DNA from: a virus
Direction: 5' to 3' (one strand)
Length of the DNA: 54,032 nucleotides
Virus record (IMG/VR): IMGVR_UViG_3300025131_009388
Span: 1-54,032 of that record
Under the pieces are notes generated by a model. It was not told where the DNA came from. It did no database searches and saw only the letters and a list, made by a program, of their open reading frames with translations. The translations under genes and the position numbers were made by a program. Positions 19,144 through 54,032 of the stretch are shown piece by piece. Each line of letters starts with the position of its first letter. The first letter of the stretch is position 1.

Positions 19144-20007
19144 TTATTCCTCCTTGTCAATTTCTTTTACTACTGCACGACCAATGAGATTTTCCCAATC
19201 CCTTTCCGGTCGTACCTCTAGATTTGTTTGCCATGCAGCCTTAACCACATTAGCGTTAACTCCGCAATCGTCTGCAAAAGAAATAAACGCATTTATGTCT
19301 TTTGGAAAACAACTCCCACCGAATCCCAGTCTACCATCAGGTCCGGGCACGTTCAAGTGTGAGTCGCCGACCCGGCCGTCAGCAGCGAAGCCAGCCAAAG
19401 CATCGTTCCAATTAACTCTGGCTTTTTGGCATATTAATTTCATTTCGTTTGCGAATGCAACCTTCACGGAGAAGAATACGTTATTAAAATATTTTACAAA
19501 CTCTGCTGTGTTGTAATCCATCTCCATAATGTTGCAATGCTTAAATCTTAATCTGTACAATTTTGCTACTTTTTCAGTATTTTCTGGAAGACCTCCGAGA
19601 ACAATTCTTGCTTGATTTAAGAAATCATATTTGGCATGCCTCTCTGTCAAAAATTCGGGATTAAAAACTAAATTTAGATTTTTAAACTCTTCGGAGAATG
19701 CCTCTGTAGTCCCAGGTATAACAGTCGATTTGATGACGACAACATTGTCGTTGCGTGTGCTGACGCGAGATATATTGTTCAAAACAGACCGAACAATACT
19801 CAAACTTATTGATCCGTCCTTATTCATCGGTGTGGGCACGGATACAAAAACCACATCTGATCCGTTGACAGTCTCTTCAAGAGTATTCATGCTACGTAAA
19901 GGATCGATATCGTATATGTGCACAGGTAGAACCGGGACAAACCCAAACCCTATTGCTTGCCCGACGAACCCGTTGCCGATGACGCCCACTGCTTTAATCT
20001 TGCTCAT
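19144..20007 (-). CDS. UDP-glucose/GDP-mannose dehydrogenase family protein, short form
   Basis: A 287-residue member of the UDP-glucose 6-dehydrogenase family, which oxidises nucleotide sugars to uronic acids with NAD. Visible are the Rossmann loop GNGFVG (11-16), VPTP (57-60), the FNPEFLTE substrate loop (115-122), the EFVKYFNN helix with K172 and N176, and the catalytic cysteine C233 in GFGGSCFPKD. It stops shortly after the dimerisation helix and lacks the C-terminal ~120-residue nucleotide-sugar binding domain present in typical 390-450-residue enzymes. No frameshift is visible and the stop lies just before the next gene's start. It may act on an altered substrate or need a partner. It is the last gene of the sugar cassette. 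Confidence 0.82.
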   Translation of the reverse strand: MSKIKAVGVIGNGFVGQAIGFGFVPVLPVHIYDIDPLRSMNTLEETVNGSDVVFVSVPTPMNKDGSISLSIVRSVLNNISRVSTRNDNVVVIKSTVIPGTTEAFSEEFKNLNLVFNPEFLTERHAKYDFLNQARIVLGGLPENTEKVAKLYRLRFKHCNIMEMDYNTAEFVKYFNNVFFSVKVAFANEMKLICQKARVNWNDALAGFAADGRVGDSHLNVPGPDGRLGFGGSCFPKDINAFISFADDCGVNANVVKAAWQTNLEVRPERDWENLIGRAVVKEIDKEE

Positions 20008-42344: not shown

Positions 42345-43169
42345 TTATGGGCAGTGAGAAGATTTATAGAATTCACATCTTTTACATGATAGCTTATTTT
42401 TAATGTAATTTTTACTATTAATATGTGTTAATGCTCGATATAATAAGTCTACGGCGTTTGCTACCCTCTTTTTGCCATTCGTGACCTTGAATATTTCAGC
42501 GTTGTTTTTTTTAGCTGTCCTCTTCAAAAGGGCAAAATAGGTATCTACATTATCCGGATCGATATTGTGTTTTTTACAAAAATAATTCTTGTAAAAGCTC
42601 AATTGATATACTGTCATCTTTTCCGATTTCCTTTGCGCGTCCCAACCCCAAGAGCACGTTTTCCAATCTATTACATGATATCTGTCGTCTGGTGTCTTAA
42701 TTACCAGATCAATGAATCCTTTAAAATTAAAATCTGTTTCAAACTCGGTAATCCCTTCAAAAATTTGCTCCTCCACCGAGACCACTTCGTATTTTTCGAA
42801 GGTTCTCTCTAGCTCGGGAAGAATATATTTTACTAAGTTCTTTCCTTGTTCTACCATTTCTACAACTAATTTTTTATTAATTTCTTCTAATTCTAGATTT
42901 TTAATTTCTTCTACGAATTTTTTCTTAAAAGAGTCTTCACCGTTGATAGTGGAATCTTGTACTTTTAATTCGCAAACGTGATGAATGGCGGTGCCAAATG
43001 CAGTGTATTCATTGCCCTTAAACTTCTTTATCCCATCTAGATAAATTAACTTATGTTTGAATGGACACTCATTCCATATTTTCAGTTCTGAGAAGCTGAT
43101 TTTTTTGAGGTTCGGTCTTTGTTTTAGGCTTTCTTCTTCTCTTTGTTGTGCCTGTTGCAACTGGGACAT
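42345..43169 (-). CDS. PD-(D/E)XK nuclease, Cas4/RecB-like with probable Fe-S cluster
   Basis: A 274-residue nuclease. FSELKIWNECPFKHKLIYLD starts the fold, AIHHVCE supplies the conserved His, FIDLVIK and VIDWKT (D154, D168, K170) form the PD-(D/E)XK centre and YQLSFYKNYF the Q motif. Four cysteines, C35 near the N-terminus and C262, C265, C273 at the end, match the one-plus-three arrangement of the Fe-S clusters of Cas4 and AddB. A role in DNA end processing or recombination is likely. The ATG at 43169 has AAAGGAAG upstream and lies 101 bases inside the previous gene; a longer in-frame start lacks support. Confidence 0.82.
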   Translation of the reverse strand: MSQLQQAQQREEESLKQRPNLKKISFSELKIWNECPFKHKLIYLDGIKKFKGNEYTAFGTAIHHVCELKVQDSTINGEDSFKKKFVEEIKNLELEEINKKLVVEMVEQGKNLVKYILPELERTFEKYEVVSVEEQIFEGITEFETDFNFKGFIDLVIKTPDDRYHVIDWKTCSWGWDAQRKSEKMTVYQLSFYKNYFCKKHNIDPDNVDTYFALLKRTAKKNNAEIFKVTNGKKRVANAVDLLYRALTHINSKNYIKNKLSCKRCEFYKSSHCP

Positions 43170-47553: not shown

Positions 47554-48183
47554 CTAAATAATCTCGTCTATAAGACCGTATTCTAAACATTGTTCTGCAT
47601 CCCACCATATATCATGCTTTAAAATTTCATCCATCTTTTCTTCTGGTATTTTAGTGTATTGTCTATAAATATTTTTTATCTTCTTCATTAACATTTCAGA
47701 ATTCTGCATGTCATCTTGCATATCCTGAAACTTGCCCCATAAGTGTCCGGACAACTGATGTACTAGCATACATGCGTTACGATGCATATATCTTTTACTG
47801 CCCACGACACTTATTAGAGTTGCGGCACTTGCTGCGCACCCTTCAATGATCGTTTCTACAGGAACTTTCGATGTCAATATGTAATCAACGGCAGATAATC
47901 CAGCAAAAACACTACCACCATAACTGTTGATGTGGAGCCTTATAGAATCTGCTTTTTCTGATTGATATACAAACGCACGAGTTGCTAAATTATTCCCCAA
48001 ATTTGTTATCGCCTTATTTAACTTTAATATCTTCGGACGATTGACAGAAGAATAAAAGAAAATATTATTTCCTGAATATTCGACAACATTAAAGTCATCG
48101 CTGTCGTTATTTTCCTTCGGCGAAGAAACCTTCTTTATGACTTCTCCCTTTTCTTCTTCTAGACCCCATTGATAACTTCTCAT
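47554..48183 (-). CDS. clpP: ClpP-like serine protease
   Basis: A 209-residue ClpP homologue. Catalytic S119 is in EGCAASAATL, H142 in MLVHQLSG and D191 in HDIWWDAE; the oligomerisation strand INSYGGSVFAGLSAVD is intact, as is the terminal EYGLIDEII. The N-terminal ~30 residues are a charged, phage-specific extension. In phages ClpP may degrade host proteins with host Clp ATPases or mature head proteins; neither can be read here. It lies directly downstream of the tRNA, within the TilS-led transcription unit. Confidence 0.9.
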   Translation of the reverse strand: MRSYQWGLEEEKGEVIKKVSSPKENNDSDDFNVVEYSGNNIFFYSSVNRPKILKLNKAITNLGNNLATRAFVYQSEKADSIRLHINSYGGSVFAGLSAVDYILTSKVPVETIIEGCAASAATLISVVGSKRYMHRNACMLVHQLSGHLWGKFQDMQDDMQNSEMLMKKIKNIYRQYTKIPEEKMDEILKHDIWWDAEQCLEYGLIDEII

Positions 48184-51450: not shown

Positions 51451-52005
51451 TTATTTTATAAGATCTTTTCCACCTAAGATTGATTCCAATATTGATTCTA
51501 AATTTTCTATTGTTTCCGTCATGTCCAGAGTATTTGCATACTGAGCCACTGTTGGAGAAGATTCTAAATCATCTCTTTCTTTTTTCAGTCTCTTAAAATC
51601 ATCTATTTTAGATTGTAATCTCGGAGATATAATAATTCCGGGGTCGCTTTCTACTTTTTCAATTACGGAACCCACTGTTTGAAATAGAGCCAATTGATTA
51701 TTCTCAGGTACTTCTTTGAATATGTCAAGCAATTCTTCTACGCCCTTTAACCTTCTTACTGGCAAATCAGAATCTGCGATTTCAAGTGCCCTTGTAATAT
51801 CTGGGTTTTCGGGGTCAACGTCTATTTTCACTGTCTTTGGCTTGCCACTTTGTTCTGGATGGTCGCTTTGGTGTGACGGTTTTCTGCCAGGCATATCTGG
51901 ACGTCCGGGGATTGGTTTGGGGAGAGGGTCTGGTGGTGTCAGTTTTGGCAAGGGGATTCTTGCTTCTTCCAAAAAGGACCTCCAATTTTCAATTATTAGT
52001 TTCAT
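51451..52005 (-). CDS. Leader-tagged Pro-rich protein (cargo candidate A)
   Basis: A 184-residue protein starting MKLIIENWRSFLEEARIPLP. Residues ~15-55 are proline-rich and unstructured, followed by a helical, charged domain (VRRLKGVEELLDIFKEVPEN, later RLQSKIDDFKRLKKERDD). The ATG at 52005 overlaps the stop of the preceding leader gene (ATGA), and the upstream in-frame codon would lie inside that gene. After the leader, E-E/A could be cleaved by a T4-type prohead protease ([L/I]-x-E site, LEE at 12-14). No known domain. It is the last member of the leader-tagged set in transcription order. Confidence 0.7.
   Translation of the reverse strand: MKLIIENWRSFLEEARIPLPKLTPPDPLPKPIPGRPDMPGRKPSHQSDHPEQSGKPKTVKIDVDPENPDITRALEIADSDLPVRRLKGVEELLDIFKEVPENNQLALFQTVGSVIEKVESDPGIIISPRLQSKIDDFKRLKKERDDLESSPTVAQYANTLDMTETIENLESILESILGGKDLIK
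51980..52005 (-). repeat. Leader-coding repeat, copy A
   Basis: First nine codons of cargo gene A. Differs from the other copies at third codon positions and by ATT in place of ATG at codon 5. Confidence 0.85.
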
Positions 52006-52664
52006 ATGTTGTGTGTGCCTTGTTCTTGCGAATTTTTCCATACCATACTGTGAATATCTCTTACAGTTAACCCTGCGAGGTCAGTGGTATATCCAGAGCC
52101 TTTTTCCACCCCAGATACCGGATGGTTAACAGACCCGTATATCCCTCCAGACTGCCAATCTGTTTTTAGCGCACCCTTACTATTCAACCAGTGGTTGACA
52201 ATCATTGCGCCATAAGTAATTCGGAAAATACCTGCGTATTCCTCCACCTGTTCATAGGAAGGGAGTTCAAATTTTGTAAGATATCCTGTCCAATCCTTGG
52301 ACTTGAACGGGCTTCTTTCGTAACAGCGAGCCAGTTCCTTTCCAATTTTCCAAAACTCTGATTCTTCTTTGGGGAATTTAGAGCCTTTCGCTTGTGGGTG
52401 ACTAGAAGGTAGTTTTATGATCCAAGGATCGCCATTATGTTGTCCAACTCCACCCATAGGTAACCACATATCTTCTGTATTTCTTCCTGCAGTTCCGGAT
52501 CCGGTGCTTCTGTAAAAAGCAGTCGGACCTTCGCTAGTTGGCAGTATAACAATTTCACGCTTAGTGGGTGGCAGCATTACAGAAACGAACATTCCGTGAG
52601 GGCATTTAAAAGAATTGCCTTGTTCTTTTAAATGATGTCGCCAGTTTTCCATTATGAGTTTCAT
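52002..52664 (-). CDS. Leader-tagged protein of unknown fold (cargo candidate B)
   Basis: A 220-residue protein starting MKLIMENWRHHLKEQGNSFK. After the leader, CPHGMFVSVMLPPTKREIVI and LPTSEGPTAFYRSTGSG indicate a beta-rich domain; the second half is helical with WTGYLTKFELPSYEQVEEYA. No recognised family or catalytic motif. Possible cleavage after LKE (residues 12-14). Its ATG follows a spacer containing AGAGG six to ten bases upstream, and its stop is fused with the next start. It could be an injected effector that acts early in infection. Confidence 0.68.
   Translation of the reverse strand: MKLIMENWRHHLKEQGNSFKCPHGMFVSVMLPPTKREIVILPTSEGPTAFYRSTGSGTAGRNTEDMWLPMGGVGQHNGDPWIIKLPSSHPQAKGSKFPKEESEFWKIGKELARCYERSPFKSKDWTGYLTKFELPSYEQVEEYAGIFRITYGAMIVNHWLNSKGALKTDWQSGGIYGSVNHPVSGVEKGSGYTTDLAGLTVRDIHSMVWKNSQEQGTHNI
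52639..52664 (-). repeat. Leader-coding repeat, copy B
   Basis: First nine codons of cargo gene B. Asn-7 is AAC and Arg-9 CGA here, both synonymous with the other copies. Confidence 0.85.
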
Positions 52665-52670
52665 AATATA

Positions 52671-53300
52671 TTACCTCTTATCATTAAATATTAATTTCTT
52701 TGATATTAACAAATGTGTTATTACTTCTAGATTATTTTTGCTGTACATTTTAGATAATGGAGAAGTCGTCCAATCATCTGGATATACATCTTGAACGGAC
52801 ATATATTGGTTGCAATCGTCAGACGGATCATCTGGTGTCAGTTGTTTTAATCCGTCATCCTTACGGGCATCAAGTTGTGTTTTTATTATGTCCGATCTAG
52901 ATTCATATTTATACCAAACCTTTTTTGCATCATCGGAAACTGACTGCCTGTCAGGAGTTAATCCTCCGCCGTTTCTGGATGCCCATTCAATCGCGATCTC
53001 GTATAATAGCGGACCCCAACCTTTTTCAACAAATGCCCTTTCTACTGTCCAGCCGTCTAAACATTGTCCAGCATAGTATTTTCTTTTTTCAATATTAATA
53101 TATCCTTCAACCGGAGATATAAATCCCCGCTCCCTTCCTTCGAGGTGAATATATTTTACTGTAACGTCCTCATTGAATTGCTGTAGGTGGATTCCCAACT
53201 TTCTCATTTCGAAAAGATTATCTATGGCTGTTTGGATACGAGGATCTGTTGCGATGCCGTCGGTTAAAAAGCTTCTCCAATTTTCCATTATGAGTTTCAT
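52671..53300 (-). CDS. Leader-tagged GNAT-like protein (cargo candidate C)
   Basis: A 209-residue protein starting MKLIMENWRSFLTDGIATDP. Residues ~90-140 contain RAFVEKGWGPLLYEIAIEWA followed by SVSDDAKKVWYKYESR, which is like motifs A and B of GNAT acetyltransferases (acetyl-CoA pyrophosphate loop G-x-G-x-L). That suggests an acetylating effector, but the assignment is by eye. Possible leader cleavage after LTD (12-14). It is directly preceded by an upstream repeat shared with the gene at 53356-53646 and by a tRNA/tmRNA 3'-end-like sequence. Confidence 0.65.
   Translation of the reverse strand: MKLIMENWRSFLTDGIATDPRIQTAIDNLFEMRKLGIHLQQFNEDVTVKYIHLEGRERGFISPVEGYINIEKRKYYAGQCLDGWTVERAFVEKGWGPLLYEIAIEWASRNGGGLTPDRQSVSDDAKKVWYKYESRSDIIKTQLDARKDDGLKQLTPDDPSDDCNQYMSVQDVYPDDWTTSPLSKMYSKNNLEVITHLLISKKLIFNDKR
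53275..53300 (-). repeat. Leader-coding repeat, copy C
   Basis: First nine codons of cargo gene C. Identical to copy D apart from the Leu-3 codon (CTC against CTG). Confidence 0.85.
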
Positions 53301-53336
53301 ATATTAAATAGTCTCCAAAAAGAGAAAAGGTGGTGG
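53301..53336 (-). repeat. Upstream repeat, copy 1
   Basis: 36 bases directly before the ATG of cargo gene C; 31 of 36 match copy 2 (53647-53682). Contains TTGGAGACTA (ribosome-binding GGAG) and a TTTTCT run. Confidence 0.75.
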
Positions 53337-53355
53337 TGGGGGCGGGAGTCGAACC
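53329..53355 (-). other. tRNA/tmRNA 3'-end-like fragment
   Basis: The minus strand reads GGTTCGACTCCCGCC, then CCCACCACCACC, close to the T-loop and 3' end of bacterial tmRNA or tRNA (TTCGACT loop, CCCGC stem half, CCA). The 5' half of the T-stem and the rest of the cloverleaf are missing, so it is not a working tRNA. It abuts the stop of the 53356-53646 gene. It may be a relic of an integration or recombination site. Confidence 0.5.
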
Positions 53356-53646
53356 TTAATTAGTTTTAAAGTTATGAAATTCAGCAAGGCCATGCTTTTT
53401 TAAGAATTTTGCAACAACCTCCTTCGGCAGATCAACAGAGCGGCCCCCCATATCAGGTGTCTCGATCTCGATCACACTATCATCCCAGTCAGGTGACTTC
53501 ATATTCATAAGCTCCTCTGGCGACATCGAAAATTCACCATCTGGTGTTTTCAGTACAACTTTTCCGCTTTCTGCTTCTAATTTCGTTTCGGTATTAAACT
53601 CTAGAACGGTTCTTCTCCAATTTTCCATTATCAGTTTCATTGTCAT
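53356..53646 (-). CDS. Leader-tagged small protein (cargo candidate D)
   Basis: A 96-residue protein starting MTMKLIMENWRRTVLEFNTE. The start is either ATG at 53646 or at 53640; the spacing to the upstream repeat favours the first, and the leader itself starts at the second. The body is acidic, with a DGEFSMSPEELMNMKSPDWD segment and a helical end (EVVAKFLKKHGLAEFH). Possible cleavage after VLE (residues 12-14 of the leader). No recognised domain. The stop is followed directly by the tRNA/tmRNA-like sequence at 53329-53355. Confidence 0.65.
   Translation of the reverse strand: MTMKLIMENWRRTVLEFNTETKLEAESGKVVLKTPDGEFSMSPEELMNMKSPDWDDSVIEIETPDMGGRSVDLPKEVVAKFLKKHGLAEFHNFKTN
53615..53640 (-). 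repeat. Leader-coding repeat, copy D
   Basis: Nine leader codons of cargo gene D, preceded here by an extra ATG-ACA. Confidence 0.85.
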
Positions 53647-53682
53647 ATATTAAGTAGTCTCCAAGATTAGAAAAGTTGGTGG
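53647..53682 (-). repeat. Upstream repeat, copy 2
   Basis: 36 bases before the ATG of cargo gene D, the partner of copy 1. It is followed, further upstream on the minus strand, by GCCACCTCCACCA, again like the end of a tmRNA. Confidence 0.75.
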
Positions 53683-53708
53683 AGGTGGCTTATCTGTTTG
53701 TTACTGCT

Positions 53709-54032
53709 TCACAAATCTTTGCCTCCTTCGGTTGTGCCCTGTGTGGCAGCAGCTTGAGCAACTGCTAAAACATCTTCAATGTCAGTATCACCATCGTTGT
53801 CGATATCTGTATCTTCCTCTTCTGGTTTTCCATATTTCCTAATGATTATCGCTGATTCGGGTGGGCTGACCAGTATTTCTGTAAACGTTGGCATTCCGCC
53901 GCCGCCCCAATATGACTTTGCCCATCTTTCTACATCATCTTCTCTTTTATTGCGAGTGTACGCCACCTCAGCCTCTGTCCAATATTCTGAATTTGTCTTA
54001 AACAAGTTATAGTTTCCGCGAAGCTTTACTTC
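53709..54032 (-). CDS. Partial protein with dockerin-like Ca2+-binding loop
   Basis: The frame is open to the window edge (5' end missing). About 107 residues of the C-terminus are visible. TEAEVAYTRNKREDDVERWA is helical; DTDIDNDGDTDIEDVLAVAQ near the end has D-x-D-x-D-G-D spacing of EF-hand/dockerin type loops, suggesting Ca2+ binding. Calcium-binding repeats are common in secreted marine proteins and phage fibres. It stands upstream of the leader-tagged genes. The complete gene is needed to judge whether it also carries the leader. Confidence 0.55.
   Translation of the reverse strand, partial: EVKLRGNYNLFKTNSEYWTEAEVAYTRNKREDDVERWAKSYWGGGGMPTFTEILVSPPESAIIIRKYGKPEEEDTDIDNDGDTDIEDVLAVAQAAATQGTTEGGKDL

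Follow-up and report, generated by a model that had tools for sequence, protein, structure and literature searches.

A conserved N-terminal leader on otherwise unrelated proteins of uncultured T4-like phages: a probable capsid-targeting propeptide

Why should neighbouring genes of one virus encode proteins that begin alike and then diverge? The question is raised by IMG/VR virus record IMGVR_UViG_3300025131_009388, the whole of which (54,032 bases) is here called the window. It carries a T4-type baseplate wedge gene (phrog_219) and, near one end, four minus-strand genes, W1 to W4, whose products all start MKLI[M/I]ENWR, after which the sequences diverge. A preliminary description of this DNA had reported the four genes and likened their common start to the capsid-targeting sequence (CTS) of the internal proteins of phage T4. 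All four open reading frames (ORFs) were confirmed. The original observation is correct and extends far beyond these genes: the shared N-terminus, hereafter the leader, heads 383 proteins (the window's four plus 379 candidate starts) in 126 BLAST cargo families at IMG/VR loci. Sequence comparison makes it very probable that the leader is a capsid-targeting propeptide working like that of the T4 internal proteins.

W1 (51451–52005) encodes 184 residues, beginning MKLIIENWRSFLEE and rich in Pro thereafter; a longer ORF has its start at 52041. W1 matched nothing in Pfam up to E 1 and nothing in PHROGs below E 0.049. W2 (52002–52664; 220 residues, start MKLIMENWRHHLKE) has five relatives at 91–99% identity and a sixth, L385, at 27%, which keeps LIVENWR. 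W3 (52671–53300; 209 residues, start MKLIMENWRSFLTD) belongs to a GNAT-like family, a link made through its relative L375 (PF00583, 7.8e-7), with three further scanned relatives giving no match; the structure predicted for W3 has a mean predicted local distance difference test score (pLDDT) of 46, too low for use. W4 (53356–53640, or to 53646 if MTMKLIM is the start) encodes an acidic protein of 94 residues that starts MKLIMENWRRTVLE. For W1, W2 and W4, the Pfam and PHROG scans yielded no cargo assignment. The C-terminal part of a fifth leader gene lies at 53709–54032, also on the minus strand, as an open ORF truncated where the record ends. The gene is complete, with the start MKLIMESWRQYLNES, in G004, a 190-kb record that is 95–100% identical to the window over all but about 460 window bases. 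Searching the window with a 26-base back-translation of the leader (up to three mismatches) returned four matches against 0.01 expected, a number reached in 0 of 100 shuffles. The codon variants that the preliminary description quoted for Leu3, Asn7 and Arg9 are correct. The hydrophobic residue it placed after MKLI[M/I]ENWR is not there: residue 10 reads Ser, His, Ser and Arg in W1 to W4, and residue 11 Phe, His, Phe and Thr.

The 379 candidate starts, each fitting the leader and heading at least 40 residues, come from 238 loci; shorter proteins were dropped (below 45 residues in another pass), and the families were built after removal of the first 16 residues. In viral contigs, the exact MKLIMENWR pattern occurs in at least 119 stretches, and a second pattern, covering MKLL- and MKLF-type starts, in at least 120. 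Whether the leader might be a general motif of non-phage genes, a concern raised at the outset, was answered by a collection of bacterial and archaeal genomes (11.3 million contigs), in which the MKLIMENWR pattern matched one stretch. This match, L172 (1287–1892) in a WOR-3 metagenome-assembled genome, is probably phage DNA, since it encodes a W3 relative with the leader MKLIMENWRGYLAE. Single records carry one to nine leader copies at up to three DNA mismatches. De novo clustering of N-termini recovered the leader set in all six leader records so treated, with chance clusters also arising; in T4, the same procedure grouped internal proteins II and III (IPII and IPIII) with one unrelated ORF, alongside other chance clusters. 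A tblastn search of 50,697 phage records gave no match to a 20-residue leader (probably too short to match), W2, a 70-residue leader protein or W1, these being the queries, without W3 and W4. In the open-licence PMC literature, no paper describing the leader was found by title or abstract start.

The family-weighted consensus is MKL[IL][MLF]ENWR-x-[FY]-[LI]-x-E. Trp8 stands at 98%, a value fixed by the search patterns, followed by Tyr/Phe11 at 86%, Leu/Ile12 at 75% and Glu14 at 74%. Residues 10 and 13 are variable, and from residue 15 onward no residue exceeds 29%, so conservation stops at Glu14. Because the search patterns fixed residues 1–8 and none included residues 10–14, the conservation of the latter was not produced by the search. 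In family-weighted terms, 64% have an [LI]xE element whose Glu is residue 14, as against 1.3% per position at residues 35–60; the element is found there in 79 of the 126 family representatives (shuffle mean 2.46, maximum 8 in 1000 shuffles) and in 14 of 707 non-leader ORFs from five leader genomes. Divergent variants retain W..[FY][LI].E even though the rest of the leader is gone.

This pattern recalls T4, in which IPII and IPIII start MKTYQEFIAE and IPI starts MKTFKEF. Ten N-terminal residues of IPIII are enough for packaging, and CTS mutants tie residues 4 and 7 to targeting and residues 8 and 10 to processing (PMC9026906). When aligned on the final Glu, T4 Tyr4, Phe7, Ile8 and Glu10 correspond to Trp8, Phe/Tyr11, Leu/Ile12 and Glu14 of the leader; the core pattern was aligned by hand, and the stretch is too short for a claim of homology. 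Like the CTS of IPI, IPII and IPIII, the leader is short, N-terminal and common to otherwise unrelated proteins; the two further share an F-[IL]-x-E end (in IPII and IPIII), equally spaced aromatic residues, a gp21 (S77) protease in the genome and a cargo set that differs between close relatives. Unlike the T4 sequence, which has 10 residues with Tyr at the first aromatic site, the leader has 14 with Trp, and its cargos are enzyme-like and present in one to nine copies per record at the same mismatch limit. A core motif written after seeing T4, [WYF]-[RKNQED]-x-[FY]-[LIVMT]-x-E within the first 40 residues, picks out 3 of 252 ORFs in T4 (IPII, IPIII and one other), 5 of 217 in G004, 11 of 236 in G010, 4 of 184 in G002, 7 of 64 in G016 and 6 of 60 in 80 kb of G001, some of these matches in the leader genomes not being leader genes. 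In internal windows of the same five leader records, the rate is 0–0.43%, and Syn9, HTVC008M, RM378, immuto and Mel-JY01 have none or one each.

If the leader were processed as in T4, the maturation protease gp21 should accompany it, and the preliminary description had proposed looking for one. The search for protease and head genes covered 20 records, namely the window and 19 chosen records (20 of the at least 119 loci); at least four records of more than 100 kb, those of L094, L095, L106 and L118, lay outside it. The S77 family PF03420 (gp21) was found in 11 of the 20 records, including G004, and in none of 14 control genomes; of the 12 records that reach 121 kb, it occurs in 11. The capsid protein gp23 was detected in 12 of the 20, and G004 has both. 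Among the 12 long records, only G012 is without both genes, and it has a T4-type baseplate gene. Every one of the 12 gp23 proteins has ENQAKELLRE at the end of its N-terminal part, with Ala, Ser, Val or Asn next, which places L-R-E at the expected propeptide junction; the T4 propeptide, of 65 residues (PMC5694885), ends in like form (SFLTE|A). Three of the 11 gp21 regions contain leader-type genes no more than 1.6 kb from gp21 (one in G005, two each in G010 and G011), and G019 has one 2.4 kb after gp23, for a total of 4 of 12 scanned head regions. Some of these leaders are variants, such as MSKMKTIMEGWRKFESLIE and MSYSSDKKHKLIFENWRRFLKE. The leader genes in the head regions of G005 and G011 form one family with a DGHHRW motif, which we take to recall ParB/sulfiredoxin proteins; Pfam gave no match for the one member scanned.

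Two further observations concern these genes. The gp23 propeptides carry a Trp-containing stretch that is slightly leader-like (NKWKPLLEGE in T4; NKWEKTGLLEG in G004, gp23 at 173583), and this stretch and the leader might bind the same core protein. The window itself encodes a ClpP-like protease (47554–48183, minus strand; PF00574 at 8.1e-31, phrog_94 at 1.2e-39), which was considered as the maturation protease and rejected because its family also matches cellular genomes: phrog_94 is found in 12 of the 14 control cellular genomes and in only 13 of the 20 leader records. In G004, the ClpP-like gene lies about 82 kb from gp21.

From these comparisons, we infer packaging, cleavage, injection and effector function for the leader cargos. 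The leader helix, with its aromatic residues Trp8 and Phe/Tyr11, would bind the prohead core of a T4-like phage, so that the cargo is built into the prohead; gp21 would cut after [L/I]-x-E14 during head maturation; and the mature cargo would stay with the DNA and enter the host together with it. An ORF would become a new cargo by acquiring the 14-codon leader, whether or not the upstream region comes along, and close relatives would swap cassettes.

Several observations weigh against this reading. The [L/I]-x-E end on which the preliminary description based its CTS proposal is supported by the comparison and lies where conservation stops; in the window, it is present in W1 and W2, while W3 ends LTD (Asp14) and W4 VLE (Val12), and the aromatic residue at position 11 is missing from W2 and W4. 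Across the set, 17.4 of 126 families (family-weighted) have no [LI]xE in the first 40 residues, and where it is missing at residues 14–16, later sites occur barely above control (12.8 vs 8.9 of 26.7). The residue after Glu14 is acidic in about a third of sites and shows no preference for Ala, which T4 IPII, IPIII and gp23 all have at this place. Neither gp21 nor gp23 was matched in the 54,032 bases of the window record itself, and 8 of the 12 scanned head regions have no leader-type gene. The core-motif search is framed on T4 and misses IPI, and a narrower, Trp-only form misses all T4 internal proteins, matching only gp23. The leader DNA pattern is in none of seven named T4-like phages, and no cultured leader-bearing phage was found. 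Finally, codons at conserved leader positions vary over all families yet are markedly skewed relative to background (Glu6 GAA 93% vs 69%, Leu3 CTC 34% vs 10%, Arg9 CGA 34% vs 14%); these skews hint at shared descent of the leader, which could keep LxE without cleavage.

That last point leads to the alternative that survives best, in which the leader targets its cargo to the prohead core but is generally uncut, LxE14 having been kept as the leader spread as one block. Such a leader would accommodate the codon skews, the incomplete conservation of Glu14 (74%), the un-T4-like residue that follows it and the Asp14 of W3; in T4, Asp at residue 10 inhibits processing and not targeting (PMC9026906). 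By that analogy, W3 would be packaged with its leader still on. Against this alternative, positions 11, 12 and 14 are conserved even though 10 and 13, which lie among them, are variable. Moreover, the W3 relatives at 21–38% identity have [LI]xE at residue 14 or 15 in eight of eight cases (the window and its sister record L371, which reads LTE where W3 reads LTD, being excluded), although two of the eight are near-identical and the leader was among the search patterns used. We consider a generally uncut leader rather improbable, and prefer a propeptide that is cleaved.

The second alternative takes the upstream repeat and leader chiefly as an expression or recombination cassette, supplying a promoter and translation start, with a peptide that has no targeting role. 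It draws on a 58-nucleotide repeat spanning the start of the leader and the region upstream of it in W3 (53286–53343, minus strand) and W4 (53632–53689, minus strand), the two copies being 79% identical, on the codon skews, and on the sequence CTATTTA, which 20% of 125 family representatives have in the 60 bases before their start. The remaining 80% are without CTATTTA, synonymous codons vary, and W..[FY][LI].E persists in divergent variants that have lost the other leader residues, all of which makes this explanation very unlikely. The repeat nevertheless qualifies an earlier statement that the peptide, not the DNA, is under selection: synonymous codons do vary, but as the upstream DNA of W3 and W4 is also repeated and codons are skewed, that statement is only part of the truth. 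Least probable of all is a signal for another structure (tail, membrane or viral compartment) or a degradation tag, for which speak two cargo families of peptidases or wall hydrolases (M23, amidase) that could act at the cell surface, and against which stand the absence, by inspection, of a signal-peptide-like hydrophobic core, the leader-type genes near gp21 and the ending in the gp21 consensus.

A CTATTTA-like element is seen shortly upstream of some leader genes in the window (about 53301–53315 and 53641–53665) and in L019 and L049, as well as upstream of ORFs in the head region of G004 (164528 and 176016). It may be a late promoter, an idea that its occurrence upstream of only 20% of the representatives leaves indecisive. 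The 58-nucleotide repeat of W3 and W4 is a possible site for exchange. Differences in cassette content are visible among close relatives: G004 lacks the W4-bearing window positions 53351–53718 and has in their place an ORF of 107 residues without a leader; L109, L116 and G014 have W1–W3 at 97–100% identity to those of the window, together with W4, which is adjoined by a further leader gene, MKLIMENFRKFINE; and in the stretch of G013 that was read, W2 is present and W1, W3 and W4 are not.

What might such a leader deliver? Scanning the 126 representatives against Pfam matched 32 families at E 0.001; from the match counts, the majority of representatives have no Pfam family. Among the 25 matches listed, AAA_33 and protein kinase have two members each, and one member each falls to the poly(A)/CCA nucleotidyltransferase head, Zeta toxin, NUDIX, M23 peptidase, amidase, GNAT, C5 methylase, RNase T, PAP2, GDSL lipase, tRNA-ligase phosphodiesterase and others. 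PHROGs added polynucleotide kinase, tRNA nucleotidyltransferase, deoxyribonucleotidase and endolysin, and PADLOC matched methylases and PD-T4-6 models. A tentative reading, which we hold to be possible though somewhat less likely than its negation, is that each genome of an uncultured T4-like group encodes up to about a dozen proteins with the leader, which together make an exchangeable enzyme arsenal (polynucleotide kinase-like, 2H phosphoesterase-like and CCA nucleotidyltransferase-like proteins, NUDIX, protein kinase, GNAT, cytosine methylase and wall hydrolases). These would travel inside the head and reach the host as infection begins, where they might, for instance, mend tRNAs that host defence has cleaved or counter other early defences; some, such as W3 with its Asp14, would keep the leader.

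The preliminary description regarded such a modular effector system as not described. This is too strong, because the principle is published for T-even phages: their internal proteins have only the N-terminal leader in common, enter the head, are injected with the DNA and act as inhibitors of host restriction enzymes (PMC12373910, PMC9026906, PMC3012670), with T4 Ip1–3 inhibiting different GmrSD-type enzymes (PMC12373910). Other systems offer looser parallels. T4 Alt, a packaged ADP-ribosyltransferase (ART), is a head-carried enzyme with an N-terminal propeptide (PMC9026906); it is likened here by description only, and the ART-like cargos are weak candidates (PF01885 at E 0.19). In PDB sequence searches with three ART-like candidates, the third matched nothing; the others yielded four weak matches and one, at E 0.0013, to an engineered repeat protein. 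These results were not used. The ejection proteins of phiKZ and SPN3US have N-terminal propeptides cut after Glu by a gp21-like protease (PMC9026906, PMC5694885), but several of those of SPN3US exceed 100 residues, only that of gp45 (20 residues) being of T4 CTS length. DarA and Hdf of P1 are likewise injected, head-associated proteins that defend against restriction (PMC12810830); P1 is an unrelated phage, likened by description and not by a leader. Within the literature searched, what appears new is the leader itself, the number of cargos and their enzyme-like repertoire. If the reading holds, a 14-residue tag would allow candidate injected proteins to be catalogued for many uncultured phages with nothing but sequence, the more than one hundred mostly unknown families becoming candidate early host-takeover or anti-defence factors; the T4 internal-protein principle would extend well beyond T-even phages, and T4-like heads could be loaded with proteins by means of a new peptide.

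Other recurrent N-termini were seen. The Flavobacterium phage immuto (NC_055915), an isolate from Flavobacterium sp. LMO8, has its own, of F-L-x-E type (ME-x-FDLKKFLVENKLT and variants), at 1803, 103806, 117631, 118632 and 125241, with a divergent member directly after gp21; this is perhaps another capsid-targeting leader. A second kind, MKxTKxxLKxIIKEE, heads different proteins in G010 (106766, 117224), G001 (9087), G002 (127510), G004 (159630) and immuto (102294, 102880, 113188), and resembles the gp21-adjacent gene of several records (LIKECIKEVLFEEG). A start of the form MP[RK]F-x-GQNKKRIDPRYFLEET with an FLEE end, found in G004 (76822, 79008) and in L308 (6725; G013), is maybe a third leader. 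G002 also has, at 42599–56711, some eighteen small ORFs in succession, each with MKVGDLV or a close variant at its start. Elsewhere in the window, a long block at 19144–42333 holds genes that resemble sugar and nucleotide-sugar enzymes (assigned partly by eye), including glycosyltransferases, a Nol-like carbamoyltransferase and a cytidylyltransferase.

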